Assembly (NCBI GenBank): GCA_018127085.1
Contig: CM030724.1
Location: forward strand, 1-64,000
Length of the DNA stretch: 64,000 bases
Direction of reading: 5' to 3'
Source: Pneumocystis sp. 'macacae'
Lineage: Eukaryota; Ascomycota; Pneumocystomycetes; Pneumocystales; Pneumocystaceae
Shown: piece after piece, positions 1-34,300 of the stretch
Numbering within the stretch: the first letter of the stretch is position 1
How the letters are laid out: every line of letters starts with the position of its first letter
Program-made: the position numbers and the translations under genes
Notes under the pieces: model-generated
Database searches by the model: none
What the model was told of the DNA's origin: nothing
The model's input: the letters and a program-made list of their open reading frames with translations, nothing else

Positions 1-3000
1 GTTTACAAGAAATTCTTTTTATTTTTTATTTCTTTTCTAACTCCAATTTAAACCCACTTCTAAACGTAATTCAATCTAACTTTTACTTCTGCTTTTTATC
101 TCTTTTGTTTTTTGTTTTTTATCCACTACCATCCTCTCTACTCATTCTTGCTCACTCGTTACTTGTTCATTTACGAAAAATACGTTATTCTTTATTCTTT
201 TCCAACTCTAGTCTAAACCCACTTCTAAACGCAATTCAATGTAATCTTCGTGTCTGCTCCTTATTTTTTGGTGTTTTTATTTTTTATTTACTACCTTCTG
301 CTTTACTCATTTCTACTCGTCACTTGCTCTTCATTTACAAAAAATACATTATTTTTTATTACCCTTTAACTCTAATCTAAACTCACTTCTAAATGCAATT
401 CAATCTAATCTTCGTGTTTGTTCTTTATTTTTTGGTGTTTTTATTTTTTATTCACCACCACCCTCTCATTTATTTTTGTTCACTCATTACTTATTCTTCA
501 TTTACAAAAAATACTTTATTTTTTATTCCCCTCTAACTCTAATTTAAACCCACTTCTAAACTTATTTAAATCTAATTTTTGCATTCCCTCTTTATTTTTC
601 ATGGTTTCTGTTTTTTATCCACCTTATCTCCACCTCTTGGCAATTCTCACCCAATTCTTGACTTACAAAAAATTATTTTTATTTTTCATTTCTTAAATCT
701 AATCTAAATCTACTTCTAAACTCATTCTAGTCTAACACTCAGTTCTACTTCTTTTCTCTTTCATTTTTACCTTTCATTTACCACCTCCAACTCTGCTTAA
801 CTCTTGATTTTTGGTTTACAAAAAAATTCTTTTTACTCTACTCTTAAAGCTAATCTAAATCTAATTTCTACTTCTACTTCTACTTCTTCTATCTTGTTAC
901 TCCTACTCTCCATCTCTACTTCTACCTCCCCTCAACCCTCTCTTATCTTCGTATTGTACACCCTACCTTTCAGCACCGCGCACACGCACTTATACCCCTC
1001 TACCTCACCTCCCCTACCCCCTACCTCCCCCTACTCCTGGTGCACACCAACCTTATCTGCACCGTACACACTTTTTTCACACCCGACCTCCCCCACCTGA
1101 GCCCATCTCCTTTGTGCACCCACCCTACCTCGATGCCTCGTGCACACTCTCACATCGTTGCTTGGTGCACACCATCTGCCTCACTGCCTTCTGTAGACCC
1201 TCTGCTACTCCCCACCTTATTCTTATTCACCTTTGATTTACAAAAAAAAAAATTATTTTATTTTTCATCTCTCCTTAAATCTAATCTAATTCTATCCTCA
1301 ATTCAATCTAACATTCACTTCTACTTGTTATCTCTTGCTATTCACATTTTCTTATCCATCTTATCTACACCTTCCAACTCTTCTAGTCTTGACTTACAAA
1401 AAATTCTTTTTACCCTTCATTTTTCTTTAATTCTAACCTAAATCCAAGGTCTAATCTACCATTCACTCTCACTCCCTGCTCTTTATATTTTTACCTTTCA
1501 CCCACCACCTCCAACTTTGCTTATCAAGTGCTCACTTTTGATCCATAACAAAAAAAATTCTATTTTCTTTTCTCTCATAAATAATACAATTCTAACCTAA
1601 TGTTAATCTAACTCTGCTTCTACTCTTTTCTTTTTATACTCTTCTTCTACTCTCCACCTCTACTCTCACTTCCCCACCTCAGCTTATCTGTACACCGCGC
1701 ACACCCACTTCTACCCCCTCTCTTGCTTATGTACACCCACACTACCCCTCTCCTACCTCACCTCTACCTCCCCCTACTAGCTGCTTGGTGCACACCATCT
1801 TATTTGCACCGTACACATTTTTTTCACATCCAACCTCCCCTCCTCACCCCATCCCCTACTCTGCACACTCCCACCTCGGTGCCTCGTGCACACCTCCTAC
1901 CTCGCTGCTTGGTGCACACCTACCTCGCTGCCTTCCACTAACTTCTGCCCACTTAGTCACATTTATTTTTTATTTGTAAAAAACATTTTATTTTTTCCTC
2001 TTTTAAATCTACCCCAGTTCTATTTCAATGCTTAGATCTACTTTTTATCTGTTGTGCTTTTTATTTTATTCTTCACCTCATCTTTATTTCTTATCAGCTT
2101 TTGCCCATTTATGCTTTATTTATTCTTGTTTTAAAAAAAATATTTTATTTTCATCTACCACTAAAACTAATCCAATTCTGCCCTCAATTCCAATCTAACT
2201 TCTGTTTTTTATTTTTTGTATTTTTGCCCTCCAGTCATTATTTACTCCATCTCTTAGCAACTCTTACTCAATTCTTAGTTTACAAAAAATTATTTTTACC
2301 CTTCATTTCTTCTTAAATCCAATCTAAATCCAAGTCTAATCTAATACTCATTCACTTCTACTTCTTTTCTCTTTCATTTTTATCTTTCACCTACCACCTC
2401 TGCTCTTCTTATCAACTCTTACTTTTGATTTAAAAAAAAACTTTTTGCTTTTTATTTATTAAAATTAGTCTAATTCTAACCTAATTCTAATCTAATCTGT
2501 GCTTCTACTCTTTTCTTTCTATACTCCTCTTCGACTCTCCACCTCTACTCTTACCTCCTCCACCCTCTCTTCGTATTGTACACCCTACCTTTCAGCACCG
2601 CGCACACGCACTTGTACCCCCTCTCCTATCCCTCCCCACCCCTACCTCCCCTTCTACTAGTACTCACTGCTTCGTGCACACCACTTCATCTGTTCGGTAC
2701 ACATTTTTTTCACACCCGACCTCCCCCACCCTCCCCAATCTTACCTCGTAGACACCCTCCTCATTGCTTGGTGCACACCTCCTACCTTACTGCTTGGTGC
2801 ACACACTCACCTCATCATCTCGTACTCCTCTCCACCTTGTTCTTGCTCGTCTTTTATTTACAAGAAAAAAGCTTTTTACTCTATTCTTTCTCCCTCCAAC
2901 TCCAATCTAAACCCACTTCTAAACGCAATCCAATCTGATTTTTGCTTTTAATTATCTCGTATCCTATCTTTACCCACTATCGTTTCATTTCCACCTCATT

Positions 3001-3640
3001 CTTCTACTTTTGATCTCCTGAAAAAACATTTTTATTCTATTCTTCCCCTTTCTCAATCTAGTCTAATTCTACGCTTAATTTCAATCTAATCTCTACTCCT
3101 AGTTTTTATCTTGTATTTTTTCCCTTTACTCGTTATCCACTCCACCGTCAATTCTCTTGTACTTTCGATCTGCTCGAAAAAACTTTTTGTTCTTTACTTT
3201 TTAAATATGAATCAATTCTAACCTAAATCCAAGTCTAATCTACCATTCACTCTTACTCTTGGCTTTTTGTATTTTCACCCTTCACCCACCATCTCCAACT
3301 CTGCTTATCAACTCTTGCTTTTAGTTTACAAAAAAACTTTTTATTCTTTATTTATTCTTAATTCTAATCTACATTTAATTCTACATCTACTTCTTTTATT
3401 TTATTTTTTTGCTCTGTTACTCAGCTCTACCTCTTGCTCACCCTGCTTTATCTGCACCGTGCACACCCCAACCACTTTCCAGCTTTGTGTGTTCCAAGAT
3501 CTGTGCAGAGACTGCCACTCAATTCCAGTCCCCTTCTTGCGCCCAACCCCCCCTGTCCACCTCAACCTCGACTGTGTGCTCATTTTTCGTCCAGAAAAAT
3601 CTCAACTCTAACATACTACTGCCAAATTGAGTCGAAATCA
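1..3640. repeat. Pyrimidine-rich subtelomeric satellite, ~165-base period, with GTGCACAC-rich long units
   Basis: The + strand is extremely poor in G and rich in C and T. A landmark 'TTTACAAAAAA' recurs near 2, 169, 334, 501, 663 and 815, then 1228, 1392, 1546, 1974, 2131, 2279, 2430, 2857, 3018, 3173 and 3325. Most steps are 148-167 bases. Three steps are 413-428 bases (815-1228, 1546-1974, 2430-2857), and these long units each hold several GTGCACAC motifs and a CACACCCGACCTCCCC-like stretch. A second landmark, 'CACTTCTAAAC', recurs near 55, 221, 384, 550 and 711 with the same spacing. Copies are diverged. Open frames here are low-complexity translations with no family features, so I call no gene. 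The position beyond the msg cluster suggests telomere-proximal DNA, and the left edge of the array lies outside the window. Confidence 0.8.
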
Positions 3641-4114
3641 ACGTAAATCCCGTGCAAACATCGACACATTATTCCTTAATCTGTCCCCCCCCACCCCCTC
3701 TCAACTCTTGTGCACACCTTCGCTCATTCGTTTTACCCCACATTTACCCCACATTTACCCCACACAAATTCTGCTTTTTTCGGTGGGGGCGTTTCCGTTT
3801 TCGGCCACAAATGCGGGGTAGCCGCCCTCCCCCTCTCTTATCGGCCCTGCCCCACACAAATTTTATTTTTTTGCGGGGTAAATGCGGGGTAATTTCGGAC
3901 TAATTTCGGGCAAACACGCGCGTCCAAAACACGCCCACACGCATCTAACGCGCATCCAACGCGCACACAGCACACATTCAGTGCAAGAGCGGGCTACACA
4001 GTGCGGGGGAGGCTGACGTGCACAGTACGAGGTGCAGGGAGAGTGTCCCGGTAAAATGCACTCATCATTCCCTAAATATATATATACATGCCTTCCCAAA
4101 TATGCCCACCCAGC
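3641..4114. other. Spacer downstream of the first msg gene
   Basis: This is the 3' flank of the msg gene that ends at 4115. It contains three perfect TTTACCCCACA units (3732-3764), a GCGGGGTA copy near 3813 and two copies on the opposite strand at 3872-3892. A GC-rich stretch near 3910-3975 repeats CGCGC and ACGC words. No gene is seen. The stretch just before the stop (about 4065-4114) resembles the equivalent flank at about 7385-7435, so msg units are duplicated together with part of their 3' flank. Confidence 0.6.
3732..3764. repeat. 11-base minisatellite, three perfect TTTACCCCACA copies
   Basis: Three head-to-tail copies are identical. On the other strand the unit reads TGTGGGGTAAA. The same family appears inverted at 3872-3892 and, as GCGGGGTAAAC, at 7234-7266. 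The units put runs of four G at 11-base intervals. Confidence 0.85.
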
Positions 4115-7099
4115 CTAAATCATAACCGAAATCATCATCCCCAACAACACCCCCTTCATGACTCCCCACCCACTCATCTTCAGCCCCCCACTCGGCTTCA
4201 CCTCGCCTGCCTCGTCCCCTGTCGTGCACCTCGTCGGCTTGCACCGCCGGGTCGACGTCAGCGTCACCGTCGATGTCGTCGTCGATGTGGACGTCGATGT
4301 GCTTGTGTGTGTCGATGTGTGTGTGACCCAGACGTCCGTTGTCTGGATCGACGTGCATTTCTCTGCGTCTCCTGTCTTTTCTCCTCCTGGCCCGACTGTC
4401 TCTTTTATCGTTATTGTTATATTCTTTGTCTCTATCTGTACTTTGTGCTCCGTCACCTCCAACGGTTTCAATCCATTGCATTTATTTTCTATTGTGTTGC
4501 ATGCATCTTTGCATTTTTCACACTCTTCTTTAAACCCACAGTCCTTCAGTAGATCTTGGCACTCCTCTTTCAATTCTACATATAAACTCAACGCCTGTGA
4601 TACCAAATCAAATGCCTTTATTTCGTCTTCTGTTATTTTTGCTGCTAGATTTCTTCTTACAAGTCTAAACTGTGCTGCATTTTTTGCCGCATCAGGTTTG
4701 GCTGCTGCTTTATTTCCTGAACCGTTTGTTGCCTTTGTTGTAACTAAAACAAGGCTTGCTTTTTTCAATGCATCTTCTGTCTTCTTTTTGATATCTTCAT
4801 ATTCACCTGCTTTCTCTTCCAGTTCCTTTTTAGCATTTGTGAGTTTCCTCTCTAACGTAGGGCACTGCTTCTTCAGCTCTTCTACAAGTTTTTCACAAAG
4901 TCCATTCCTAAAATCATCATCACTTTTTTTATTTGTAGTACTTTTGTCTGTGCACAAAGTCTCAAATCCATTGGTTGCATTCGCCCATTCCGTGCAATAT
5001 CCATCAAGTGTTTTTCTGCACTGATCTTTTGTTTTCAAGCTACCTTTTAATTGATCAAGTAGCTTCACTTCCAATTCTTGTTGCTTAATGAATGATCCAC
5101 ATTCTTCCTTTAATTTTTCGCAATTGTGGTTGCCATTGGTCGTTAGATTCTTGCAGCTCGACATGAATTTGCTACAGAACGGCATCCAATTGCTGCATGT
5201 TTCTTCTTTTTTGTCCTCTTTCTTCGCCTCATTTACAACTTGACTCTTTTCCATGCGCTCACCCAGCACGGCGCACTTCGCGCCCACGTTTTGCGTGAGG
5301 TACGTGCAGGTGGCGTTCGGCGCGACACACCCAAGCGCGTACCGCGTCCTCCCCCGTCTCCCCCACCCACTGCATCGCCCTCTCAGTGTTTCTACGCACG
5401 ACTCAAACTTATCTAGGTCATTGACCTTCTCCTGCAAGAAGACCTCCTCCAGGTGCTCCGCAACGCCCAGCCTTGCGCAGTGGTGCCTCAGTGTCCGGCA
5501 GGGCCACTCGATGTGCTTCGAATCCTGCTCCAAGTCTTCGCACTTCTTCAATAAATCCGTGCAGTGCTGCCTCGTTGGGAGATCCCGCTTTGCGTCCAGA
5601 TGTTCTTGCAATATGTTTGTATTTATATTCAAATACGTTAACAGTACAAAAATAGAATCCATTGGCTGCAAGCATAATGCAAATATCTCCTTGCTCTTTT
5701 CTTTTATGCCCGTACATACGTTTATCAGGTCCTTTGGAAATGTTTTAAGCCATGTGTCATGATTATTAAATTTCCCCCGCAGATTTCCTAGCAATGCTTC
5801 ATTTGCTAATATATCAAGGCCTCTTTTATAACACCCTGCTTTAACATTCTTACACAATTTCTCAAAAGACGTTTGACTTCCATAGTAAAAACAGTCCGAT
5901 TGTAATACTGTGCAATCATATTCATTAAAAACATCTGGTAAGTCGCTCCACAACATAACTTCATCCTTCTTAAAATGTTTATTCTCTATTCTTGTAGTAA
6001 GAGCTTTTGTTTCCTTTTTAAACTCATCATCTAATTTTTCACATTTATCATCATGTTCAGATGCATTGCCACATAATTCTTTTATACCTCCTCCAAGATA
6101 TTCAATAGACTTGCATTTACTACTCAGTATAATTTTGCATTTATCTTTATCAAATTTTTCATTTTTTGATAACAACAGCAACAAATCAAGAGGATCTCTT
6201 TCTAGTGGTTTTTCTATAAGAACGCCATCTTCTGCTGCTTCTTTGTAAAGCTCCTCTAACCCTACTTTTTCCATCACGGTAGGCTCTGGCCGCGTAGGAT
6301 CAAAATGTGAGCCCGGTGGAACATAAACAATTCCTTCTTTTCTACACTTGTCTTTCAGGTTATCGCACTTACTATCTTGACAGTCTAGTCCGTAAAAATA
6401 ACACTTCTCAAGTAATGAGTGTACATTTTCTTTCAGTTCATTATTGCTTAATGTTGTTTCTACTTCTTTTTTCAAGAGCTTACACTTATCCTTCGCTGCC
6501 TGCACTAGATGTTGGCATGTATATTCTGAATTAACACATTTCTCCAGCAATTCATCACTTCCTTGAATCAAAACTGGGCAAATTTCCTTGAGCTTTTCAT
6601 TACATTTATTATTATCAAGATTCCCTCTAAGCGCCCTCAAAAGAGCTTCCTCTGCCACCTCCTCACGCTTCTTCTGGTAGCAACTCGTCCTTAACTTATT
6701 ACAGTTATCTTTAAGATCATCAGGATATGCATCTTCCAAAAACAAACATTCTTCTTGATTTGAACAATCATCCTTCGTTAACTGTGGAATTTGCTTTGTA
6801 GCTGCTTCTTGGAGCTTTGTTTTAAAAGTACCATGCTTTTTACCAACATTGGTTTTTAGATCTGTACATTTTGCTACGCCGTCATCTTTGCAAATTTCTT
6901 TTAATTTTGGATAAATATTAAAGTTTTCATCTATTTCCTTCAATTTTTCACAGTATTCTTTTAGTCCTTTTTTGCATTTTGCTTCGTCTATTGCATCTTT
7001 TTTTAGAATAAAAGCCAAAAGATAATCTTCATCATCATACACATCCTGCACCCCTACTTGTGCCCGCCTCTTAACCGCCCGCGCCACCCCCCGCGCCAA
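4115..7099 (-). CDS. Major surface glycoprotein, CRJE-type (msg-I / Msg-A1), probable silent donor copy
   Basis: An uninterrupted frame of about 990 residues has the regularly spaced Cys pairs and Lys/Glu-rich helices of the Pneumocystis MSG repeats. It ends in a Ser/Thr-rich stretch (STSTSTSTTTSTVTLTSTRR), then a CKPTRCTT motif, then a hydrophobic tail expected to be exchanged for a GPI anchor. The 5' end carries the CRJE coding ARAVKRRAQ, with VKR a likely Kex2 cleavage site. There is no signal peptide and no intron. The frame opens with TTG, and the position where the neighbouring copy has ATG is GTG (7085-7087), so this copy cannot start on its own at the junction. In this family, copies are expressed only after joining the upstream conserved sequence at the expression site, which is not in this window. 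Role: abundant surface adhesin and antigen on the fungal cell. Confidence 0.93.
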   Translation of the reverse strand: MARGVARAVKRRAQVGVQDVYDDEDYLLAFILKKDAIDEAKCKKGLKEYCEKLKEIDENFNIYPKLKEICKDDGVAKCTDLKTNVGKKHGTFKTKLQEAATKQIPQLTKDDCSNQEECLFLEDAYPDDLKDNCNKLRTSCYQKKREEVAEEALLRALRGNLDNNKCNEKLKEICPVLIQGSDELLEKCVNSEYTCQHLVQAAKDKCKLLKKEVETTLSNNELKENVHSLLEKCYFYGLDCQDSKCDNLKDKCRKEGIVYVPPGSHFDPTRPEPTVMEKVGLEELYKEAAEDGVLIEKPLERDPLDLLLLLSKNEKFDKDKCKIILSSKCKSIEYLGGGIKELCGNASEHDDKCEKLDDEFKKETKALTTRIENKHFKKDEVMLWSDLPDVFNEYDCTVLQSDCFYYGSQTSFEKLCKNVKAGCYKRGLDILANEALLGNLRGKFNNHDTWLKTFPKDLINVCTGIKEKSKEIFALCLQPMDSIFVLLTYLNINTNILQEHLDAKRDLPTRQHCTDLLKKCEDLEQDSKHIEWPCRTLRHHCARLGVAEHLEEVFLQEKVNDLDKFESCVETLRGRCSGWGRRGRTRYALGCVAPNATCTYLTQNVGAKCAVLGERMEKSQVVNEAKKEDKKEETCSNWMPFCSKFMSSCKNLTTNGNHNCEKLKEECGSFIKQQELEVKLLDQLKGSLKTKDQCRKTLDGYCTEWANATNGFETLCTDKSTTNKKSDDDFRNGLCEKLVEELKKQCPTLERKLTNAKKELEEKAGEYEDIKKKTEDALKKASLVLVTTKATNGSGNKAAAKPDAAKNAAQFRLVRRNLAAKITEDEIKAFDLVSQALSLYVELKEECQDLLKDCGFKEECEKCKDACNTIENKCNGLKPLEVTEHKVQIETKNITITIKETVGPGGEKTGDAEKCTSIQTTDVWVTHTSTHTSTSTSTSTTTSTVTLTSTRRCKPTRCTTGDEAGEVKPSGGLKMSGWGVMKGVLLGMMISVMI
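7062..7087 (-). promoter_or_regulatory. CRJE recombination junction, variant copy
   Basis: Read on the minus strand this codes VARAVKRRA. It differs from the 10422-10447 copy at two bases: G for A in the start codon, and T for C in the Val-Lys junction. The first nine bases are preceded by a near-duplicate GCGCGGGGG. The site is where, in Pneumocystis, the expression-site leader and the msg body share identity and exchange. Confidence 0.75.
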
Positions 7100-7435
7100 A
7101 TTCTGACCGACGACCTGAAAGCTGAGTTTGCTGGGTCATTTTAAGCTTTCACGCAGAAACCAACCGTGAGATAAACATAGTGTCAGTGTGCCCCTTCTTA
7201 TCTTAAATGTCACGTGATAAATTTAATTTTTGTGCGGGGTAAACGCGGGGTAAACGCGGGGTAAACGCGAAAATTGAATTACAATAAATGGAAATAAAAA
7301 ACATGGTAAATGGGCATAAAGAGCATAGGTAGATGAAAATATGGGCAGATTACGCGAGAGTACGTCTCGTTGAATGCACTTCATGTCAATTGTTCCTTAA
7401 TATACATGCTTTTCCCAACCATGTTCATTTGTCCC
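7100..7435. other. Spacer between the two CRJE-type msg genes
   Basis: It contains an 11-base minisatellite with three perfect GCGGGGTAAAC units (7234-7266), then AT-rich sequence. No promoter or open frame is evident, which fits a donor gene that lacks its own transcription start. Confidence 0.6.
7234..7266. repeat. 11-base minisatellite, three perfect GCGGGGTAAAC copies
   Basis: Head-to-tail units are followed by a partial GCG. They are related to the inverted TTTACCCCACA units at 3732-3764, with one base changed. Three G4 runs are regularly spaced. Confidence 0.85.
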
Positions 7436-10400
7436 TTAAATCATAACCGAAATAACCATTCCTAATAACACCCCCTTCATTACACTCCACCCTGTTATCC
7501 TCAACCCCCCGCTTGGCGTCACGTCTCCCGCTTCATCCCCTGTTGTGCACTTTGTAGGCTTGCACCGCCTTGTAGACGTCAGCGTGACTGTAGACGTAGT
7601 AGTTGATGTAGATGTAGACGTGCTCGTGTATGTGGATGTCTTCGTGATCCACGTATCCGTTGTCTGAATAGACGTGCATTTTTCTGCGTCTTCTGTCTTT
7701 CCTCCTTGTCCGACTATCTTAGTCGTCGTCGTTGTCTCTGTCTTCGTCTCTGTCTTTACTTCATGCTCCTTCACTTTTAATGGTTCTAATTCCAAACATA
7801 TTTTATTTATTTTTTTGCACGCATCGTCGCATTTTGGACATTCCTCTTTGAACCCACATTTCTTCAGTGAATCGATGCATATCTCCCTTAGCTCTATATA
7901 CAAACCAAGTGCCTGTGACACCAAATCAAATGCCTTAAATTCCTTCTCTGTTACATGCACTTTTGCTGGTGCATCTCTTCTAACAAGCTTGAATTGTTTT
8001 TCGTTGTTTGCTACTGCCGCTGCTGCAGTTTTATTTTCTTCTTTATTACCTGCAGTCTTCGTTACAGATAAGATAAGGTTTGCTGCATCTATCGCTTCTT
8101 CTGCTTTCTTTTTGATATCTTTATACTCTTTTTCTTTTTTTACCAAGACTTCTTTAGCTTCTGTAAGTTTTTCTTTTAATTCAGGGCATCTCTTTTTCAC
8201 TTGTTGTACCAGCTTTTTACAAAGCTCTTCTCTAACTTTAGTATCATTGTTTTTGCCATTGTTATCTGTGCACAAAGTTTTAAGTGAATTAGTTGCCTTT
8301 TTCCATTCCGTGCAGTATCCGTCGAGTGTTGTTTTACATTCATCCTCTGTTTTCAAGTGGCCCTTTAGTTCAGCGACTACTTTCTCTTCCAATTCCAGTT
8401 GTTTAATGACTGTTTCGCATTCCTTTTCGAGTTTTTTGCAATTTTCTTCACCATTAGTCGCTAGATCCTTGCAACTTGACATATATTTGTTGCAATATGG
8501 CCACCAAGAGCTACATAATGATTCTTTTTTGCCATTATTCTTCTTCACCTCCTCTACAACTTTTTCTGTTTTCATATGCCCGTCTAATGCTGCACACTTG
8601 GTCTTAACGCTCTTCGTGATAATCCTGCACGTAACATTCTGCGCCAGGCATGCAAGAGCAAACCGATCCCTCCTCCTACTCCATGTATTGCATCGCTCAC
8701 CCAACTTTTCTACACACTGATCAAAGTCATCCAAATCTTTTGTCTCCTCCTTCAGCAACACCTCCTCCAACTCTTCTGCATTCTCCAATCGTCTGCAATT
8801 CTGATTCAGCGTGTGACACGGCCATCCAATCTCCCTTGAATCCGGTCCCAGCTCCTTACACTTCTTCTCCAACACTTCGCAGTCCTTTCTCGTCGGAAAA
8901 TCCCGTCTTTCATCCAAGAGCTCCTTCAAATAAATTGCCTTCATCCGTAAATCTGTTGAAAGTGCAAAGGCGGCGTTTTTCGGATCCATACACAGTACAA
9001 ACAGTTCATCGCTCAGTCCTTTTAGTTCTCCACAGGCTTTTACCAACTTCTTTTGAAGATCATCAAACCACGTTCCATTTGAACCCTGCAATGAACCCCG
9101 CAATTCACTTTGCAACTCCTCATTTGCTATAGCATAGAGTCCTCTTTTATAACACGCTGCTCTCAGGTTACTGCAGGGCGTGTCTGTACCTCCCTGACCT
9201 TCTAGATAAAGACAATCTGATTCCAAAGTTCTGCAATCTTTCTCAGTAAGAAACGTTGACAAATGATGCCATCCAATAATTGTATTTGGGCTAGTATCAA
9301 CAAGATATTTATTTTTGAGTTTTGTAGTAAGGCCCTGAGCGCTGTCCGCTGCTTTTTTTTCCAATTCATCGCATTCTTTCGTTCCATTATCACTTGCTTT
9401 ATCAGTACTTTTATTACAGAAACCCTTCAGAAGTTCATGTTCTTTAAGGTCTTTGCATTTTTCCTCAAGTACTTTTTTACACTTGTTACTGACTCCTGAT
9501 CCTGCATCTTTCCGGCTCAACAGGAGCAAAAGTTCAGTTGCATCTCTTGTGGGCGGTCGCCCAATATAGACCCCATCCCTTGCTGCCTCCCCATAAAGCT
9601 CTTCCAGCTCTATTTCTTCTGCCACTGTAAGCCCCGGCCGCGTGGGCTCAAAGTCTGAACCCGGTCTCCCGTAAACTATCCCTTGTTTTTCGCAATTACT
9701 TTTGAGTTTATCGCATTCTGGTTGATCTTTAGTACAATCTGTGCGGTAAAAGTAACATTTTTTGAGTAACGGTAAGCATTTTGTTTTTAACTCGTCTTCA
9801 TTTTTTTTTCCCAGAAGGCTATCAACTTCCCCTTTAAGAGAATTGCAAGTATTTTCTTGCTTAGTTATAAGGCTTCCACACGTTTGCTCGTCAAAACACA
9901 GCACCGTCAATTCATCACTTTCTCCGCTCAATTCCAGACAAACTTCCTTGAGCTTCTCCTTACATGACTTATTGTTAAGCTTCCCGCTAAGTGCCCTTAA
10001 AAGGGCATCCTCTGCTACTTCTTTGCGCTTTTTTTGATAACAATTAACTCTTAACTTATTACATTTATCTTTAAACTCGCCAGGGTATGCGTCCTCCAAA
10101 AACAGACATCCTTTCTGATTTGAACAATGTTCATCCGTCAGCTCTGAAATTTTTTTTCCAGATGCATCATCAAGTTTTTGTTTAAAACTATCACGCTTTC
10201 CATCAATTTTAGTTTTTAGTCCGGCACATTTTGTTGCACCATCATTTTCGCAAATTTTTTTTAATTTTGGATCTACATTTTCTAATTCCTTATCTGCTTC
10301 TTTTAAACTATCACAGTATCCTTTTAGTTTCAGTTTACATTGTGCGTCTTCTAAATTATCTTTTTTCAAAACCAATGCAAAAATATGCTCCTCTTCAATC

Positions 10401-10447
10401 TCATCCTTCTGTGCTGCTTGCGCCCGCCTCTTGACCGCCCGCGCCAT
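7436..10447 (-). CDS. Major surface glycoprotein, CRJE-type (msg-I / Msg-A1)
   Basis: A single frame of 1003 residues is closely related to the msg ending at 4115. It begins exactly at the CRJE with ATG (MARAVKRRAQ), shares many Cys blocks (for example LKKCYFY, CEKQGIVYG, LFLEDAYPG) and has the same ending: Ser/Thr-rich stretch, CKPTKCTT, PSGG and a hydrophobic GPI-type tail. No signal peptide and no intron are seen. The ATG belongs to the junction element and need not be used as a start. Expected role is a surface antigen after recombination into the expression site; at this position it is most likely a silent donor. The alternating conserved and variable blocks relative to its neighbour suit mosaic gene conversion. 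Confidence 0.94.
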   Translation of the reverse strand: MARAVKRRAQAAQKDEIEEEHIFALVLKKDNLEDAQCKLKLKGYCDSLKEADKELENVDPKLKKICENDGATKCAGLKTKIDGKRDSFKQKLDDASGKKISELTDEHCSNQKGCLFLEDAYPGEFKDKCNKLRVNCYQKKRKEVAEDALLRALSGKLNNKSCKEKLKEVCLELSGESDELTVLCFDEQTCGSLITKQENTCNSLKGEVDSLLGKKNEDELKTKCLPLLKKCYFYRTDCTKDQPECDKLKSNCEKQGIVYGRPGSDFEPTRPGLTVAEEIELEELYGEAARDGVYIGRPPTRDATELLLLLSRKDAGSGVSNKCKKVLEEKCKDLKEHELLKGFCNKSTDKASDNGTKECDELEKKAADSAQGLTTKLKNKYLVDTSPNTIIGWHHLSTFLTEKDCRTLESDCLYLEGQGGTDTPCSNLRAACYKRGLYAIANEELQSELRGSLQGSNGTWFDDLQKKLVKACGELKGLSDELFVLCMDPKNAAFALSTDLRMKAIYLKELLDERRDFPTRKDCEVLEKKCKELGPDSREIGWPCHTLNQNCRRLENAEELEEVLLKEETKDLDDFDQCVEKLGERCNTWSRRRDRFALACLAQNVTCRIITKSVKTKCAALDGHMKTEKVVEEVKKNNGKKESLCSSWWPYCNKYMSSCKDLATNGEENCKKLEKECETVIKQLELEEKVVAELKGHLKTEDECKTTLDGYCTEWKKATNSLKTLCTDNNGKNNDTKVREELCKKLVQQVKKRCPELKEKLTEAKEVLVKKEKEYKDIKKKAEEAIDAANLILSVTKTAGNKEENKTAAAAVANNEKQFKLVRRDAPAKVHVTEKEFKAFDLVSQALGLYIELREICIDSLKKCGFKEECPKCDDACKKINKICLELEPLKVKEHEVKTETKTETTTTTKIVGQGGKTEDAEKCTSIQTTDTWITKTSTYTSTSTSTSTTTSTVTLTSTRRCKPTKCTTGDEAGDVTPSGGLRITGWSVMKGVLLGMVISVMI
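10422..10447 (-). promoter_or_regulatory. CRJE recombination junction
   Basis: On the minus strand this is the GC-rich element coding MARAVKRRA, at the very start of the msg reading frame. It is much richer in GC than the sequence on either side. Known family behaviour makes it the crossover site with the upstream conserved sequence. Confidence 0.82.
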
Positions 10448-11014
10448 CGCTCGTATAGGATCATACAGAACAAGGCCTTAAAGCACGGAACACTTCTATT
10501 TCATCCTGCTTTATCGGTGTGTCAAAAATAGTGAGATTTTCATATTCCTCAAAAAAACAAGTAATCCCATGCCATTCTAGCACTAGTGACTATTCTTGTG
10601 CGCCCTTATAATCAATAGTGAGTAGAGTTTGGAAATATCCAACTGAAAAACCAAAATCTTCTGATTCGACAAGGTTGAACGCTAACTTCAAAATACAATT
10701 CTCAACTTTATAAAATAGTAATTATCCAAAAAAACCAAAATGCGATTCAGAAAGATAAATTTGGGATTGAACGCTTAGTAGTTAAGCACCAGGCAAGCTT
10801 GGGACTCTAAATGACTAGTATTTTATTCAATGTCCAGCATTTCATATCTATGTTGAAAGCATGTTCTAAATATTCATATTTTTATATTGCATATCTATAT
10901 TCTCTCTAAGAATCATTTTTAAATTATCTTCTAATTCCCCAATTTTATAGCCCAATACAAATGCTCATTATTTTCTTTTAGTTTTTAACCCAATGCAAAT
11001 GCCCATTATTCCCT
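10448..11014. other. Spacer between CRJE-type and intron-containing msg genes
   Basis: About 570 bases with no convincing open frame. It is more AT-rich than the msg bodies and lacks the GGGGTAAA minisatellite of the two leftward spacers. It lies upstream of a promoterless donor gene and downstream of an independently expressed one. Confidence 0.5.
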
Positions 11015-14000
11015 TTAAATCACAATAAAAGCTCCCATTACCCATATAACAATATTCATTACTGTCAACCCTGATATCTTCGTCCCCGCGCTCGGCACTT
11101 CCGTATCTGCTCCACCTGTTTCTGGCTCTTTTGTTCGTGCATCTTCCGTCGTACACGGCACTGGCTTGCATTTCTGTGTAGATGTTGTCACTGAAATATG
11201 TGTCTTTGTCTTTCTAGAGACCGATTTGCTTGTCACCCAGGTTGTCTTTGAATCGATTACCACGCAGATCCCATCTTTCATCGTTACAGTGGGCTTCGGT
11301 TTGTCACCCGTCATGGTCGTTGAGTCTGTAACCGTTACGGTCAAGACAGACGTTTCTGTTGGAGACACTGCTTTAGGCAATACAAATGCCTTACAATGCT
11401 CGCGTATTTCCTGGCATGGATTCTTAAAATTAAGGCAATCATCCTCAAACGCACACTCTTCGATAAAATGGCCACAGATATCCTTGGCCTCTAAGTACAG
11501 CTCTAGAACCAGAGACATCAGATCAAATGCGAGTCCATGACGCACAGATGACTCTATATCCAGATCGTCTCGACGCACAAGTCTGATGTAAGCCGTGACA
11601 TTGCCACGTGCGGCAAGGCGATGATTCTGCTTCTCATCCGCTGCCTGAGATGCCACTAAGAACAAGCCTGAATCGCTAGCGGCTTTTTCGGCCTGCTCTT
11701 TAGTTTTTTTAAATTCAGCTGCCCTATCTTCCAAATCTTTAGCAACTTTATCCAGCTTAGCTGGCAAATTATTGCACAAAATCTCTGTCCATTTTATAAA
11801 CTTATTGCAAATTTCACCTCTCACATTATCATCTTTGCTATATTCGTTGCATGAATCTTCAAGCGTTTTATTTGATTTTGCTGAGCTTGCGCAGTAGTCC
11901 TTTAACCGAGTAGTGCATACATCCTTGTCTGTTAAAGATCCCTTTATATTGTACATCAGGGCTCTCAATGAAGGAAACTTGTTGTGAAATGTCTTGCAGT
12001 TCTCTTTAAGCTTCACACACAGTCCATCTCCATTATTGTCTTGCTTCAGTTTATGAGGGCAGTTCTCCATGAGCATATCGCAGTATTTCTCCCAAAGAAA
12101 ACAAACATTATCCCTTTCTTTATCGTCTTCTGATTGCTTGACAACATTCTCGATTTTCATATTCTGCTCAAGTGCAGAGCAATGGTTTTGTACATCCTCG
12201 CGTATTCTAAGACATGTTTTGTAGTGTGCTACACATATAAGACTAAATGGACTCATTTCCCTCATAAACCATCGAGGACACTTCGTTTCTAAATATCTTG
12301 TGCAGTTATCAATCGTTGCCAAAACGTCATTATTTTTGTTCAACAAAGCGTCTTTCAATTTCTGCGCATTTCTCAGATGAGCACAATTCCTTCTCAATGT
12401 GCTGCAAGGAGCATTAAGCTCTTCGAAATCCTTTGACAGATTCTCGCATTCTTTCTCCAAAACAATACAATCTTTTTCTTCTGGATAATCCCTCTTTTTA
12501 CCCAAAATAGAGTATAATTGGGAACTTCTTCTTCCAAGATCCCACATAAGTTCTTCGCACGTTTCTCCTGGTTTCAAACACATTGAAAGCAAATCTATAC
12601 TGTCGTTTCTAACTTTTTGACACCTTTCTACAAGTTTTACTGCACATTTCTTAACCCCATCTGAAGTCCAATCATGAAGAAAACCAAATAATTCTTCCAC
12701 TAATACTTCTTTTGCTAAATTGAAAAGCTGTGCTCTAGAATATGCCGCTTTCAGAGTTCCACAAGCATCCACGAAATCAGTACCGCAATGTGATTGCAGG
12801 TAATAGCATTTTGAAATAAGATCTGCATACACTTTTTCATGAATCATTTCAGATAGTTTATCCAAAGTATAAAACATGTCTTTAGCTCCACTTTTTAATT
12901 TAAATAATCCTTTTTCTTGAAGAGTTGATTGAAAAGAATCACATTCTCCTTTTACAGTATTGTTTATTTCTTCACATACTTTAGTACGGTTAGTCGTATT
13001 ACATAAGCTCCCTAATTCTTTTAAATGGCGAAAAGTGCAGTTTCCTAGATAATAAGTACATCTCGCTATTTCCTCATTACTTGGATTCGTATTATGATAT
13101 GCTAATAGCAAAAAACGACGAATTTCTGGAAACGAAAGTTTAACGTTTAAGACACCCATAGCTTCTGCTTCAGCAAAAAGCCGATCAAGACCTATTTTCT
13201 CTTGAAGTGTAGGTGGAAATTTCAATGGGTCAAAAAGATGAGTATGGGGGGGGGGGGGGGAATACACGATATTTTCCCCTTTACAATCGTTTCTAAGCTC
13301 CATACATTCCTGTTGTACCAGATCCTTACAGTTTGGTGAGTGGAAGTAACATTTCTCAAGAAGAGAGTGACAATCCTTTTCTAATTTATCACTATTTTCA
13401 AGCACAGTTTTGATATCTTCCTTAAGAGATTTGCAGATTTCTTTTTCTCGAGCAGGAAGAACTTTACATATATGTTTTTGAAGGAAACAATACCAGAATA
13501 AATAATAGTTTTCCCCTGCTAACACCGGGCAAAAGTCAGGAATTTTTGCATTACACGCTTTTTCAGTTTCCAAATTCCGGACAAGGGCCCTTGAAAGGGC
13601 TTCATACGTTAGAGTTTCAAGTATAGCTTCATGACATTGTTCATCTAAACTATCGCAGAGAGAACGAAAACTCGTGAATTCCCGAAAAATTGTATATTGA
13701 ACATGAACATAATTACATTGGACTTTGTTTAAAGTAAATTCCGCAGAAGTAAGACTACTAGAAAGATCCAAAAGAAAGCTTCTAGCATTTCCAGACACAT
13801 TAGTGATCTTAGTTTTGAGATCAGTGCATTTTTGTTTTGCTTCTTGACAAAATTCCTCTAATGCAGGGTGCAAATCCTTTGGCTCTAGACCCATACCTCT
13901 TAAATTCTTACAGTATTCTTCTAATTTCTGCTCACATTGATCATCTATTGCATTTTTTCCCAAAATCAAAGCCAAAATCTGCTCCTCACTGGGTAAAAAA

Positions 14001-15726: not shown

Positions 15727-18700
15727 TTAAACAAGTATCCATGATCCTAGTATTACTCCCGTAGTTATCCAAAACAACTCTATCATATATAATCCTTGTG
15801 TTCTAATTCCATAACCTTTTCCATAACCTTTTCTATGACCTTTTCCATGACCTTTTCCATAACCTTTTTCATAATCATCTTCGCAATCGTCACTAGGTAA
15901 TATTGTTGGTCTAGCTCTTAAGCGTGTAGATGTTGAACATGTAGCTTTCGTGCATACACTTGTCTTGCGTGTAGCTGGCGATGTTGCAGTTGGTGTTGTA
16001 GTTGATGGAACTGCAGTTGGTAAACTCGATGATGAATCGGATGGTTTTGGTTTCGATGGTGCTGGTTCTGAGCCTGGTTTTGGTGCTGATTCTGAGCCTG
16101 GTTTTGGTGCTGATTCTGAATCTGGTTTCGGTTTTGACCCTGATTCTGAATCTGGTTTCGGTTTCGACCCTGATTCTGAATCTGGTTTCGGTTTCGACCC
16201 TGATTCTGAATCTGGTTTCGGTTTCGACCCTGATTCTGAATCTGGTTTCGGTTTCGACCCTGATTCTGAATCTGGTTTCGGTTTCGACCCTGATTCTGAA
16301 TCTGGTTTCGGTTTCGACCCTGATTCTGATCCTGGTTCTGGTTTTGGTCCTGGTCCCGGCACTGATCCCGGCACTGGTCCTGGTTCTGGTCCTGGTTTTG
16401 GTCCTGGTTTTGGTCCTGGTTCTGGTCCTGGTCCTGAAACTGGTTTTGATTCCGGCAGCTGTTCTGGTACTGGTTCTGATCCTGGTGTCGATGGTAATGG
16501 CGTTGATAACTCACATTTATTAATAAAATTAGCACATATAGAAGAAACCCTGTCATTAATTCCAGTACAAGAAGACCCTATAAATAAACATAAAGATTGT
16601 ACTTTGTTACATTTAGTAGTAAGATTAGAAATAGTATGAAAATACGATGAAATTTTTAATATGAATTCATCGCATACTTTTTTTAAATATGGTACTAAGG
16701 AATTGCATTCATTAGTTTTGCTGCACAGAAGTTTTTTTTCTTGATTTTCTGATTCTTTGCATTTTTCTAATTTTTTTTCACATAGTTCAACTGTAGGTAT
16801 TTCTCCACCAAGCGTTCTAGCTAATGCAAGAAGATTCCTATGTCGGTCTACTGCAGTATTACATATTTCCGCAATTTTCTCACAGAGATTAGAGCTAGGA
16901 CAACTTGAATATAAAAGACAGTAATTTTCAAAATAAAAACAACGACTAAGAGCAGCATAAGATACATCATAAAGAGTATTTAAATAATTTCCCAGAAGCT
17001 CGAAAAATTGATCACAATCGTTCTGAAGTTCTTCGAATATGTCCAGACACGTATTTTGCACCTTAGTACATCCATAAGCCGCATTATTTTCTGAACAATA
17101 TGTTTGAAGATAGCCAACGCAAACAGAAATACTTTGTAAGCTAAGGGATTGGTTGTTTAGCATTTCTAATTTCAACTTGTTAAGTTTATCCATCTTTCTA
17201 CAATATGTTTCGAGTTCCCAACATAATCCTAAAGTAGATTTATCACAAGACTTTAAATTATTGCATTCTTCTCTTGTTTTGCCGCAAGAATGACGTGTAA
17301 ATTTTTTGTTGATTTTCTTTAAATAACCATTCATTTCTTTGCATTTTTCTTCAAGAAATGATATTAAATCTTCGCATGTTTCTTTCAAATGCAGACAACT
17401 AGTGAATATATGATAATTGTGATGCATATGTTTTTTACAAGCAAGAAAAAGATAAAGTTGGCAGCTATCCTCAGTTGCTGTACGATCTAAAGATTTATCA
17501 CTTTTTTCTACAAATGTGAATTGTCCATTCATTTCTTTTATTAAATTTATTTTAGCAACCGTTTCCAAACCTGTCTGACAACAAAAGACTCGTATTTCTT
17601 TGCATATATCACTTTTGTCCCAATGATCGATGTATGAAGTAATAAAATAACATAACGATAGATACTTTGCACATTCTTCTTTTGAAAAGGAGTTTTTGAA
17701 AGTTGATAAAGATTTGTTATTGGTGAAATTTTTAAAATAAGATTGAAAATGTGATTCGCCTTTATCATTTATTTCTATACAAGTATCGTGTTTACCATTG
17801 TTAGATTTTTTAGTACATATAAGCTTAAAAATATTCAAATAATCTACTAAAGCACATTTTTTATTTAACTCTTTTTCGCAGTTTTCGGTTTCTGTATTAC
17901 CATTTTGAATCAAAAAACTAGTAAATACCATATCATTGAATTTAGATACTTCACCAACATAGATACCTAAATTATCTAATTTACTATATCCAGACTCGAC
18001 AACATTCTGTTTTGGAACAGCAAATGGGTTTTCGAAGAGACTAAGATCAAAATCACTTAGAATATCATAAAAGAAACCTTTTTCTGCACAATCTGCTTGA
18101 AATGAGCGGCAGACAGCATAAATACTTTGACAACCAAAAAAGGTAAAATAGCATTTTTTTAGCCAAATTTTACAATTATCTTCTGTTATTTCTTTTTCTT
18201 TTTGTAGTAATAATTGTTTTTGAAAAACTTGACATTTTCTATTAGATTCCGAGACAAATTCTCCACAAATATGATCGCTATTAATACACAAATCAAGTAA
18301 TTCAGGACTTTTCTGGCTAAGCGATAAACATTCAGATTTGAGCTCTTTTAGGCAATAAGTTGTAGTACTTAGAGTTTTCTTTAAAAGATTATAGAGAATC
18401 TTTTTCGCTAATCCCTTACAGAGTTGAATGTAACAGCGTTCTTTTAGTGTAGTGCATTTTGAAGAAAGTTCTGAATTATATTTTTCTAAGAAATAACATT
18501 CCATTTGCAACATTCTACACTGATGGTTTAAATCCGTTTTACTTGAAAGACTCTGAATAACTTCTTGTATTTTTTTAGATACTTCACTTTTTGAATTAGA
18601 ACATATTGTACTAATGTGTGTACAAATATTTTGAATTTCATGATCTAGCGTTTTTACATTTGCATTAGAGCATATTCTTTCCAGTTTTTGTTTACAATTA

Positions 18701-19107
18701 TTATTATTTTCTTCCAGACCCACCAAACTAACAAGATAAAAGACCCTATTATTAATATTTTTATTTCCAAATCCTAATTTTACGACTTCTTCACCTAATT
18801 CATTCTTATATTCATCACTTATAAGTGTATGGAGAAATAATGGATGTTGATCATGAAATGGAGAAAAGGTTCTAACAAGATCTAATAATTTAGAATTAAA
18901 TCAAAAAGAAAATATATCACCTAAAAACTCATTATCTAGCGAAAAAACTCCTTTTATGTTGAAAACCAAAAGAATCCATGTTTTTGTGAATAGCAGTACA
19001 AAGAAGAAAGGAGAAGAAGGTGAGAGAGGAAGGAATAAAAGAGCCAGTCTTTTAATTAATGATTCAAAAATATGGGTAAAAACTGAGATACTGTAGAAAT
19101 AATTCAC
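15727..19107 (-). CDS. Divergent MSG-like surface protein with Pro-rich repeat and GKGH repeat
   Basis: The main exon (15727-18881) codes over 1000 residues. The N-terminal three quarters has MSG-type spaced Cys pairs (CYFLEKY, CYIQLCKGL, LKKCYFTF, CFYFENYC), but sequence far from its neighbours. There follows a Pro-rich region with GPEPGPKPGPKPGPEPGP-type runs, then tandem SGSKPKPDSE decapeptides, a Thr-rich block, CTKATCST and a GYGKGHGKGH repeat. It ends in a hydrophobic tail (MIELFWITTGVILGSWILV). A short intron (18882-18920) probably joins to an upstream exon ending LDNEFL; the only in-frame ATG there is 19107, preceding hydrophobic stretches such as WILLVFNIKGVFS, so the start is uncertain. 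Coding sequence is more AT-rich than the CRJE-type genes. It resembles the Pro-rich, independently expressed MSG subfamilies. Confidence 0.8.
15808..15870. repeat. ~12-base repeat coding the GKG(Y/H) tract
   Basis: Five units of the form ATAACCTTTTCC, with small changes, lie near the 3' end of the divergent msg-like gene. On the minus strand they code alternating Gly-Lys-Gly-His/Tyr-(Gly/Arg)-Lys, a His/Lys-rich tract just before the terminal hydrophobic segment. Confidence 0.7.
16111..16320. repeat. 30-base minisatellite, six identical copies plus one near-copy
   Basis: The unit begins TGATTCTGAATCTGGTTTCG. Copies at 16141-16320 are identical (6 x 30 bases); that at 16111-16140 differs at one base. 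On the minus strand it codes the decapeptide SGSKPKPDSE. Degenerate 12-18-base Pro/Gly units continue to about 16440. Because the unit is a multiple of three without stops, other frames are open across it too. Confidence 0.92.
19010..19065 (-). promoter_or_regulatory. Pyrimidine-rich tract near the 5' end of the divergent msg-like gene
   Basis: On the minus strand this is almost pure C/T (CTTCCTCTCTCACCTTCTTC and similar). Such tracts commonly sit just upstream of starts in fungal genes. If it is a leader element rather than coding sequence, the translation start given for the downstream gene (19107) would be wrong. Confidence 0.3.
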
Positions 19108-31324: not shown

Positions 31325-34300
31325 ATGGTTTCTCGGCTTGGTACTCTTTTTGTTCTTAGGAAAGGTACTGAAGAAGAATATGCACAATTTCCAATTACGA
31401 AAAGATTAAATACTTTTGGAAGGTAAAATATTAGTTTAAGAAATGGAAGTAAACTAATAATTTTTGAAGACATTTGTCATGTGATGTAAGGTTATATGAT
31501 GAACTTATTTCGCGTCAACATGCTCGTCTTGAAATAGATGATAATGGAAATGTAAATTAAATTAGTTATATTAATCTTTCTTATATTAGAGTTAGGCATT
31601 TTTGGAGAACCTAAGTATAAATGGCACTTTTGTTAACAATAATGAACTGAATACTTCTGGGAATAAGAGGTTCCAGTTAAATACAGGTGATATTATTAGT
31701 CTTGCAGGTCATAAGTTTCGATGGGAATATCCAGTAGATGAAAAACAAACCGATCAGGTAGTAATATATGTAAGTCAAGTTGTTGTTTTTGAGGAATTAT
31801 GTTAATTCTCAAAGACCCCTCAGTCAAAAAGGCATGTTTCTATTAAATCAAAGAGGAAATCTTCATTGTTTTTTGAAAATATGGTTTGTAATTTGGAGTT
31901 TTAAAATATTGTTGATCATTTTAAGAATATTGTTGATATATCTTCTGAAAATAAGAAAAACCAAACCAATCAGCAAATATTTTCAGAAAACAAAGTTTCA
32001 AAAAATATTGTAGTAAAAACTAAAAATGTATTTGATATGGCCGATTTAAAACTAAAAAGTGGAATATCATCTTCGAATGAAGCTTTCAATTTGAAAAGTT
32101 CAGTTTTACCTATTTTATGTTCTCCAAGAAAACATAAATTGGATCAGAGTTCTATCAAAAATGAAATACATGGTCCATCTACGAATTGTATTATAGAATA
32201 TAATACTCAAATAACGGATGATTTTCTTAAGTCCAGCTTTAAACCAGAAGGTATGTTATAAAGTAAAAGTATATGATTTCTAATTGTTTTTAATACAGCT
32301 TTTGTTTTTTCTGATAAGCTTCCGATGGATATTTTAGTGTTAAGGAAATCTTTTGAACCTATACTTCACAATTTTGGTTTAATTATGGATTTTATATCGA
32401 TTAAAAAGGATATTGTTTTTTCCAATGAAGTTAATGGTATGTTTAAAAATATTAAAATAACTGAAATATTTATATTGTGTTAGAGTTTATAAGTAAAGAT
32501 TTGCGTGGTTCTTTTTTAAAATCAAACCAGTCAGATCTTGAAAAACGTAAAGAAGCATTATCACAGTCGGTAACATTTCTTCCAAAATTTTTTCCACAAA
32601 AGAAAATCAGTACATCAGGGACTAATGATCCTCCTTGTGGTTTTCGAACTCTTAAATTAGAGGATAATATTTTTTTTAGTCCCCCAAAAGAAAAATCTTA
32701 TGATATTTTGCCGAATAGTCATCCTTCGCCATTAAAACATGGTTCTCCTGTTTTACATTTTACTAAAAAATGTTATACTGATACGCGTGATTTACCACCT
32801 CGACCTGAACATGTTATAAAACAAAATAGGTATAAAAAGAGGTCAAGTTTCCCTCCTTTTATACCTTCCAAGATTTTAAATAATCCTATACTCACAAATT
32901 TACGATTTAGACGTTCAGCGTCTAATTTGCCCTTTTTTTCATCTACTTATGTTACTAGAGCGAAATCAGCAACTAAAAAACAAGATAATTTACCTGCAAC
33001 TCCTTTGGAATTTTTAGAAATATTAAATGATTCAGAAAAAAAGCTTTTAGGATTAACACCATTGCTGTCTTCTGATAATGATTCCAAGGAAAATCACATT
33101 GATCTATTGATGGCTTCAAAATATAATGTATCTTTGAAAAATGATACAATTTGCGATACAGATTTATATAATTTTGATAAAACGGAACATCATAACAATA
33201 ATTTAGAGAACAGTATTCTGAAAAATACAGTTTGTTCAGAGTTTAAAACATTTTCTCCTGGGAAATGGGCTGTTACAATTAACGGTAAAAAGCAAAAGCT
33301 TTATGAATCACCTATCCATTCGGTTAGTAAAAATATTTTACTAAGTAATTCATCAATAGTTAATACGGATTGCTCAAGTCGATATTGTTCAGTAAATCAG
33401 TTAAAGGATATTGATAAAACTTTTTCTCCTGGAAAATGGGTTCTTACTGCTCCTGGGAAAAAAATGAAATTGTATTGTTCTCCAGATATTAGAGAAAAAT
33501 CTACGGATAAATTGATATATAATAACCTTAAATCAAAGTCAATTAAGGATGTTTCGCAAAAAATGGGTACTACTTTAAATTATAATTTAGATAAATTTAA
33601 TTTTGGAATCGATAGTTTTCAAAATTTTTATACTAATACTGACAAAAAGAGTTTTAAAGCTACTGATATATCTGATTCTATAGTTAATGAGAATGGAGAA
33701 TCTAATAATGTTTTTCTTCTATTAAATAATGAAGAGAAAAATTTGTATTCTAATAAAAATTTATATGCAAACATGAGCGAATCGATTGAAAATGGGATGA
33801 GTTCTTCGGAAGCTATTATAAATAATGCGGATCATAAGAATATCTTGACAAATAGTCCAGATAATATGCAGAAATTGTATACGAGTAATAGTTCTAGCAT
33901 AAATGAGTCTGGAATTAGATTACTAGATCAGGATGTTGGAGAAATTAATATAGGATTCACTAGTGATCAGCTGTTTAATTTTGCAAAATTATCTAGTTCT
34001 ACTACTATTAACTTAGGACTATTTCCAGAAAATGCTCAGAGATTAAATGATAAGCTTGATTTTAAGGATAATGATTCTTTTTCGGAATTATTTAAGCATC
34101 ACATTTTTAAAGAGGAACAAGAAAAAATGAATTTGGATTTGTTTCAAAATGATATACAGAAATTTCAATCTAATGATCTGAAGTTAATAGCTCAAATTTG
34201 TGACCATAATCGCTATATACCTATAAATGAGTGTTCTTTATATGGCCATGAGAAATATAATAGTTCTGAGAATATATCTATTTCTTCGGTAAAATCTAGT

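Follow-up and report, generated by a model that had tools for sequence, protein, structure and literature searches.

Trypanosoma brucei carries 70-bp and 177-bp repeats near its antigen genes, the 70-bp repeats upstream of VSG, and in Plasmodium falciparum the TARE elements follow one another in a fixed order between the telomere and the antigen genes. In Pneumocystis jirovecii, telomere exchange has been proposed for the switching of msg-I genes on the ground that they adjoin the telomere, and single recombinations that swap msg with the telomere have been placed at the CRJE, a sequence of 33 bases at the msg-I gene start (PMC10622565 and PMC5676039, in their accessible text). The accessible part of the long-read study of P. 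jirovecii reports that no telomeric repeats were identified, yet it proposes the telomere-exchange model for msg switching (PMC5676039), and the stretch separating the last msg gene from the telomere was thus left open there.

The satellite described here lies in that region in Pneumocystis sp. 'macacae'. As for subtelomeric tandem repeats in general (Louis, as cited in the accessible text of PMC8381367), it is restricted to chromosome ends, is present on many of them, and consists of tandem repeats on the distal side of duplicated genes, but it differs from the usual kind in its higher-order array, in units positioned alike across ends, and in lying directly beside an antigen family. With P. 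falciparum TARE1–6/rep20 and SPE2 near var it shares non-coding repeats in fixed order from telomere to antigen genes. It also shares one-strand motifs that have a GTGCA core and a conserved position (PMC2829057, accessible part). The organism is unrelated, however, and unit length and sequence differ; SPE2 is bipartite and bound by an ApiAP2 protein, and the satellite has GTGCAC words. Like the T. brucei repeats, the satellite is located near antigen genes and may serve or accompany recombination, but it is found downstream of msg, on the telomere side. It also resembles the CRJE as a proposed site of exchange, but is situated beyond the msg 3' end and not at the gene start. No description of the array was found in the accessible text of the literature on Pneumocystis or its telomeres (PMC10622565, PMC8305976, PMC7940399, PMC4764891, PMC5676039, PMC10327204), and older papers or supplements might contain one. 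A subtelomeric satellite is a known kind of element, and as far as our literature search showed, this one is new for Pneumocystis.

Layout of the array and its junction with msg genes

The window analysed is a stretch of 64,000 nucleotides at the left end of contig C5 (GenBank CM030724.1, positions 1 to 64,000, forward strand), and has the following features:

1..3480, no strand assigned: telomere-associated satellite array of 13 short units (149–167 bases; the first less certain) and 3 long units, from A-tract spacing and 8-mer lags
181..826, + strand: four short units of 164, 167, 161, and 154 bases, classes a, a, c, and d; best-kept words TCTAATCTAA, CAATCTAAT, and the closing A-tract
827..1252, + strand: long unit 1, 426 bases, with GTGCACAC at 1040, 1140, and 1165
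1558..1983, + strand: long unit 2, 426 bases, with GTGCACAC at 1788, 1886, and 1912
2441..2870, + strand: long unit 3, 430 bases, with GTGCACAC at 2674, 2771, and 2797
2871..3336, + strand: three innermost short units of 156, 156, and 154 bases, classes g, f, and i
3460..4100, no strand assigned: conserved junction between the satellite and the terminal msg gene, matched at 33 contig ends (alignment of 7 ends)
3725..3915, − strand: junction inverted repeat (ACCCCACATTTACCCCACA ... GCGGGGTAAATGCGGGGTAA) with a long stem, 200–390 bases past the msg stop codon
4115..7135, − strand: terminal msg open frame, 1006 aa, 3' end facing the telomere; Pfam MSG and Msg2_C
7436..10477, − strand: second msg open frame, 1013 aa; Pfam MSG and Msg2_C

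The satellite is diverged, with short units of about 156 bases and long units of about 430 bases. Its telomere side is cut off, the contig starting inside the satellite, and the transition to the conserved junction is near 3460–3480. With the A-tract as landmark, the order is five short units, one long, two short, one long, three short, one long, and three short. The A-tract intervals between 180 and 3599 are 164, 167, 161, 154, 426, 151, 154, 426, 157, 149, 151, 430, 156, 156, and 154 bases, followed by 263 bases that reach the junction; the outermost short unit, which precedes position 180, is less certain. Identical 8-mer pairs at lags of 41–999 within positions 1–3440 number 1396, compared with a mean of 317 in 50 dinucleotide shuffles, and peak at lags of 140–179 (76 and 113 in two 20-base bins against shuffled means of 7.9 and 7.7), with further peaks at 720–759 and 880–919. 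The periodicity given in a preliminary description of this DNA is therefore real, since A-tract steps and 8-mer lags agree, and the higher-order sequence stated there was also correct. The long-unit length of 413–428 bases was close to the values of 426, 426, and 430 obtained with the A-tract landmark. A + strand nearly free of G is likewise seen (5.9% G), but with 22.7% A the array is not a pyrimidine strand. Tandem Repeats Finder does report repeats, but only at 2–623 (3.5 copies, 77% matches, score 635) and not over the whole array.

In the 64 kb, GTGCACAC has 11 matches, where 0.22 are expected: nine lie in the long units, three apiece, and the other two are at 3459, on the array edge, and at 3710, in the junction. 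Its spacings inside the long units are nearly constant (100/25, 98/26, and 97/26 bases). The array does not qualify as coding sequence, the stop-free stretches reaching only 195 and 152 aa and unit lengths not being held to a multiple of three, and positions 1–8000 gave no Rfam match at gathering score.

On the msg-sense strand, the junction inverted repeat folds with −76.2 kcal/mol (z = −4.56), and this predicted structure may terminate the msg transcript. Words of the GCGGGGTAA type from this hairpin recur as GCGGGGTAAAC, repeated 3.3 times, at 7234–7269 in the spacer that separates the terminal from the second msg gene. A telomere-directed frame of at least 250 aa is placed directly inside the junction on 13 of the 16 left ends examined, three of these 13 frames being cut by the end of the piece. 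Further inward, a msg-like frame at 15727–18900 (− strand) has 10-aa repeats (PDSESGSKPK) at 15901–16512, within a Pro/Ser-rich stretch. The G-poor + strand continues from the satellite through the msg genes (positions 1–13000): the GC skew is about −0.66 within the array and −0.45 at the array edge, and along the msg genes it mostly lies between −0.16 and −0.31. The strand richer in G serves at once as msg sense strand and as telomere G strand. As for the origin of the window, the frame at 32465–35572 has five relatives at E <= 0.001, with 64% identity in P. jirovecii and 41–42% in P. canis, P. wakefieldiae, P. murina, and P. oryctolagi, values that fit a sister of P. jirovecii. Its relatives in other Pneumocystis species carry an FHA domain; the frame itself has no Pfam match, perhaps explained by an exon outside it.

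Distribution and common plan of the chromosome ends

The genome comprises 8.27 Mb in 19 contigs, 16 large and three short, and ends are denoted by contig number and L (left) or R (right). The first 660 bases of the window have at least 173 matches in the genome, and among the matches listed all are near contig ends by inspection, with + polarity at left ends and − polarity at right ends. An exact 13-base word of the long units, CTTGGTGCACACC, occurs 97 times in the 8.27 Mb and its reversed pattern not once. All 97 stand on the distal side of the junction that belongs to their end and at most 9.4 kb from the contig end, again on the + strand at left and the − strand at right ends. Inspection of the 89 matches to a core-pair pattern put every one no further than about 8 kb from an end; the reversed control has 33 matches (a count, with no places listed).

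The conserved junction (query 3460–4100 of the window, all contigs) was located at 33 contig ends, namely 30 of the 32 ends of C1–C16 together with C17L, C18L, and C19R, and was not found at C3L or C12L. At C19R the match consists of short pieces only, on about half of the ends it starts at approximately position 163 of the query and thus covers only the inner 460 bases or so, and one more junction piece, of 39 bases, lies further inward at C10:476070. The distance from junction to contig end is 2.6–10.9 kb (median 5.2 kb), the ends being assembled to unequal depth. Neither the exact long-unit word nor the junction revealed an internal copy of the satellite in the 8.27 Mb, and the scatter through internal regions that had been named as a counter-indication is not seen. 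End-only motifs, duplicated on many ends in one orientation, identify the array as a telomere-associated (subtelomeric) satellite, and its junction at nearly all large-contig ends bears out the original proposal of such a satellite, with higher-order units, adjoining msg.

Across all contigs, three TTAGGG repeats in a row give 31 overlapping matches, every one of them at the left tip of C10 or C15. These are the only ends assembled that far, and on both the telomere repeats lie outside the array. Between TTAGGG and the satellite of C10L and C15L is a telomere-adjacent element with GTCACGTG and CCATAA words, which has a G+C content of 58% (C10L 124–1800) compared with 36% in the C10L satellite. 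Words of this element are found on six ends (C2L, C8L, C10L, C15L, C16L, and C12R), where the distance from the first landmark to the junction is 2.9–7.3 kb. As far as the ends are assembled, their plan from the outside in is TTAGGG (two ends), a GC-rich element of about 2 kb (six ends), about 3–7 kb of satellite, the junction with its hairpin-forming inverted repeat, and the 3' end of the last msg gene. The telomere-adjacent element contains the word GTCACGTG at 853, 1425, and 1473 in C10L and at 809, 1393, and 1441 in C15L, and on many left ends the word recurs in the spacers that separate msg frames (position 7209 in the window). It would be a Cbf1-type site, and as such could link the element and the msg spacers.

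For analysis of the units, 31 arrays (16 left and 15 right ends, several partial) were cut at the A-tract landmark; C3L, C12L, and C19L, having no array, were excluded before counting. The 410 intervals below 480 bases comprise 287 short units (135–180, median 156), 74 long units (370–479, median 430), and 49 others, 40 of which measure 300–349 bases and are mostly doubles with the landmark lost. In all 31 arrays the units are arranged head to tail with defined lengths, which makes the satellite tandem. Best conserved in the short-unit consensus are TCTAATCTAAA, CAATCTAAT, and the closing A-tract, the enrichment of the latter being partly by construction since units were cut at A-tracts. The motif GTGCACAC is carried by 72 of the 74 long units, none of the 287 short units, and 6 of the 49 others; 225 copies are on one strand and 6 on the other, and the commonest spacing is 20–29 bases (104 of 330). 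The core word CTAATCTAA occurs 244 times in the units compared with 1.8 in shuffles. Exact CCCTAA is depleted (5 against 62 in shuffles), and the array was rejected as a degenerate telomere on this count; TCTAA is enriched (1129 against 313), and with CTAATCTAA a telomere-derived unit core is possible. A recurrent module of one long and two short units spans about 730 bases. Class a comprises the outermost short units (62 of them, spread over 21 ends), whose median distance to the junction is 4.8 kb. Three other classes have near-fixed places relative to the junction: class g at a median of 601 bases (13 ends), class f at 444 (16 ends), and class i at 284 (9 ends).

Sequence sharing between ends

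The mean identity of short units is 0.555 within an array and 0.559 between arrays (287 units, 31 arrays), which disfavours array-specific evolution by local unequal crossing-over alone. For 281 of the 287 short units the best match is on another end, and the same holds for 271 of 287 when matches of at least 90% are ignored and for 250 of 256 once C16L and C18L, which are near-duplicate arrays, are left out. With unit numbers made equal and one other end chosen at random, the other end was closer in 57% of 5740 draws. Of the 132 best-match pairs in which both members have a next short unit, 105 have next units whose match is in the top 5%, a figure that partly reflects module order.

With cut-offs of our choice (at least 1 kb and at least 97% identity), eleven shared blocks were obtained, all distal to the junction, and these near-identical blocks common to different chromosomes agree with the exchange between ends that the preliminary description had suggested. 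Six of them have both ends free inside the array (C10L/C16L, C10R/C11L, C1L/C7L, C18L/C7L, C10L/C18L, and C3R/C8R). The longest, C10L/C16L, extends over 5927 bases at 98.8% identity, while the msg 3' ends of that pair are 72.6% identical; C10R/C11L share 2500 bases at 98.6% and C3R/C7L 2233 bases at 99.7%, and the block C8L/C8R joins both ends of one contig. The distal count of 11 out of 11 is weaker than it appears and partly forced, because 14 of the 15 right-end pieces contain nothing inside the junction and five of the 11 blocks reach, on one side, the end of the contig or fetched piece or come within 32 bases of it. Furthermore, blocks of lower identity cross the junction region (C18L/C1L, 5186 bases at 96.4%; C5L/C8L, 2039 bases at 92.4%), so that exchange is not limited to the satellite.

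From the C13 tip inward, C12R and C13R have 100% identity over 5655 bases, and beyond that the scores stay equal and the words keep one offset as far as C13:433387. Their junctions differ (88% and 77% identity to that of the window), and the identity must therefore break within the innermost 0.8 kb of the satellite. This pair may represent a recent tip duplication or assembly redundancy, and complete identity is typical of what assemblers produce.

Among 13 left ends (78 pairs), identity in the inner 900 bases of the satellite is unrelated to that of the terminal msg genes (rho 0.005, p 0.97). Its relation to junction identity is weakly negative (rho −0.30, p 0.008), which simple tip exchange does not predict. 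The satellite is thus found only at ends, is polar and ordered, is shared between ends, and is uncoupled from msg.

Possible roles of the satellite

Based on the near-identical shared blocks, the lack of array-specific units, and the broken linkage to neighbouring msg, we consider it probable that repeated ectopic recombination between ends keeps the arrays of this subtelomeric satellite on different chromosomes alike, and that the satellite serves as a homology zone for the copying or swapping of tips. Aligned units would allow ordinary homologous recombination or break-induced replication to transfer a chromosome tip to another chromosome with the msg gene left uncut, and terminal msg genes would in this way be recombined with new tips. 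A role in msg tip exchange is conditional on such events: exchange is read here from sequence comparison, old duplications or faulty assembly could also account for the shared blocks, and the true platform for exchange may be the telomere or the junction. A bolder proposal, which we offer tentatively, is that the telomere-adjacent element, the satellite, and the junction hairpin form a portable cap cassette that is copied onto any chromosome end. Its ordered units, with one A-tract each, would be maintained for tip exchange right behind the last msg gene, as a dedicated 3' landing zone beside the 5' CRJE.

Equal identity within and between arrays and the presence of shared blocks would also be expected of a satellite with no function at all, spread and homogenised merely through tip recombination or repair and acting only as a buffer for msg variation, and distal tandem repeats are usual in the domain structure of subtelomeres (review PMC8381367, accessible text). 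Selection for exchange and passive spread are inseparable at this level of evidence. We nevertheless regard a passive satellite as rather unlikely, given that unit order is kept, with classes g, f, and i at near-fixed distances from the junction, that the bounding junction is present on 30 of 32 large-contig ends, and that CTAATCTAA is far more frequent than in shuffles and GTGCACAC almost exclusive to long units. The regular A-tracts lend themselves to another interpretation, in which one tract per 156 bases or so phases nucleosomes and the GTGCAC blocks recruit a putative DNA-binding protein, such that the satellite would act as a platform for silencing or clustering between telomere and msg, by analogy with Plasmodium TARE2/3 and PfSIP2. 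The intervals (135–180, median 156, n = 287) are close to the nucleosome repeat of fission yeast, and GTGCACAC is almost always on one strand, its commonest spacing being 20–29 bases. SPE2 motifs of P. falciparum, which include a GTGCA half-site, keep the same place and direction within TARE2/3 at all chromosome ends (PMC2829057, accessible part). The long-unit length of 430 bases, however, is not divisible by 156, the protein binding the GTGCAC blocks is hypothetical, and the likeness to Plasmodium would be convergence. In addition, a Pneumocystis ChIP-seq preprint describes, in its accessible text, H3K9me2/3 peaks only at pericentromeres (PMC10327204), which speaks against a classical heterochromatin role, although such repeats are possibly hard to map. 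We find a chromatin spacer of this type unlikely.

The strand bias of the units (T 42.0%, C 29.9%, A 22.4%, and G 5.7% over 92 kb) would favour triplex-forming homopurine/homopyrimidine DNA, an H-DNA element that would stimulate recombination, and in P. jirovecii the 33-base CRJE has itself been suggested to form a triplex (PMC10622565, accessible text). Triplex-forming DNA, which the preliminary description had considered, does not hold up against dinucleotide shuffles: the longest pyrimidine run in the window array is 15 bases compared with 18–34, runs of at least 20 in all units number 6 compared with 39–55, and mirror repeats are at chance (1 against 0–1), so the units show no excess of the long pyrimidine mirror repeats that characterise H-DNA. 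The longest single run over all units, 41 bases, slightly exceeds the 34–35 of the shuffles. Triplex DNA is thus rejected as highly improbable. An assembly artefact or contamination, to which the short contigs C17 and C18 and the identical C12R/C13R pair might point as assembly redundancy, is in turn exceedingly improbable, since one conserved junction, with base differences among its copies, joins the array to msg at 33 contig ends, polarity is consistent, and telomere repeats lie outside the array on two ends.

Returning to the satellite as a homology zone, the array fills the gap between the last msg gene and the telomere for a close relative of P. jirovecii, and allows the satellite and the neighbouring msg genes to be seen as uncoupled. 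The order of its units and the variants of the junction provide end-specific markers with which tip exchange can be followed in isolates. The array is a fungal counterpart of the repeats that accompany var genes in Plasmodium. On almost all chromosome ends of this Pneumocystis it occupies, with its units in one order, the stretch from the telomere side to the terminal surface-antigen gene, where it is likely to be a zone in which tips are swapped.
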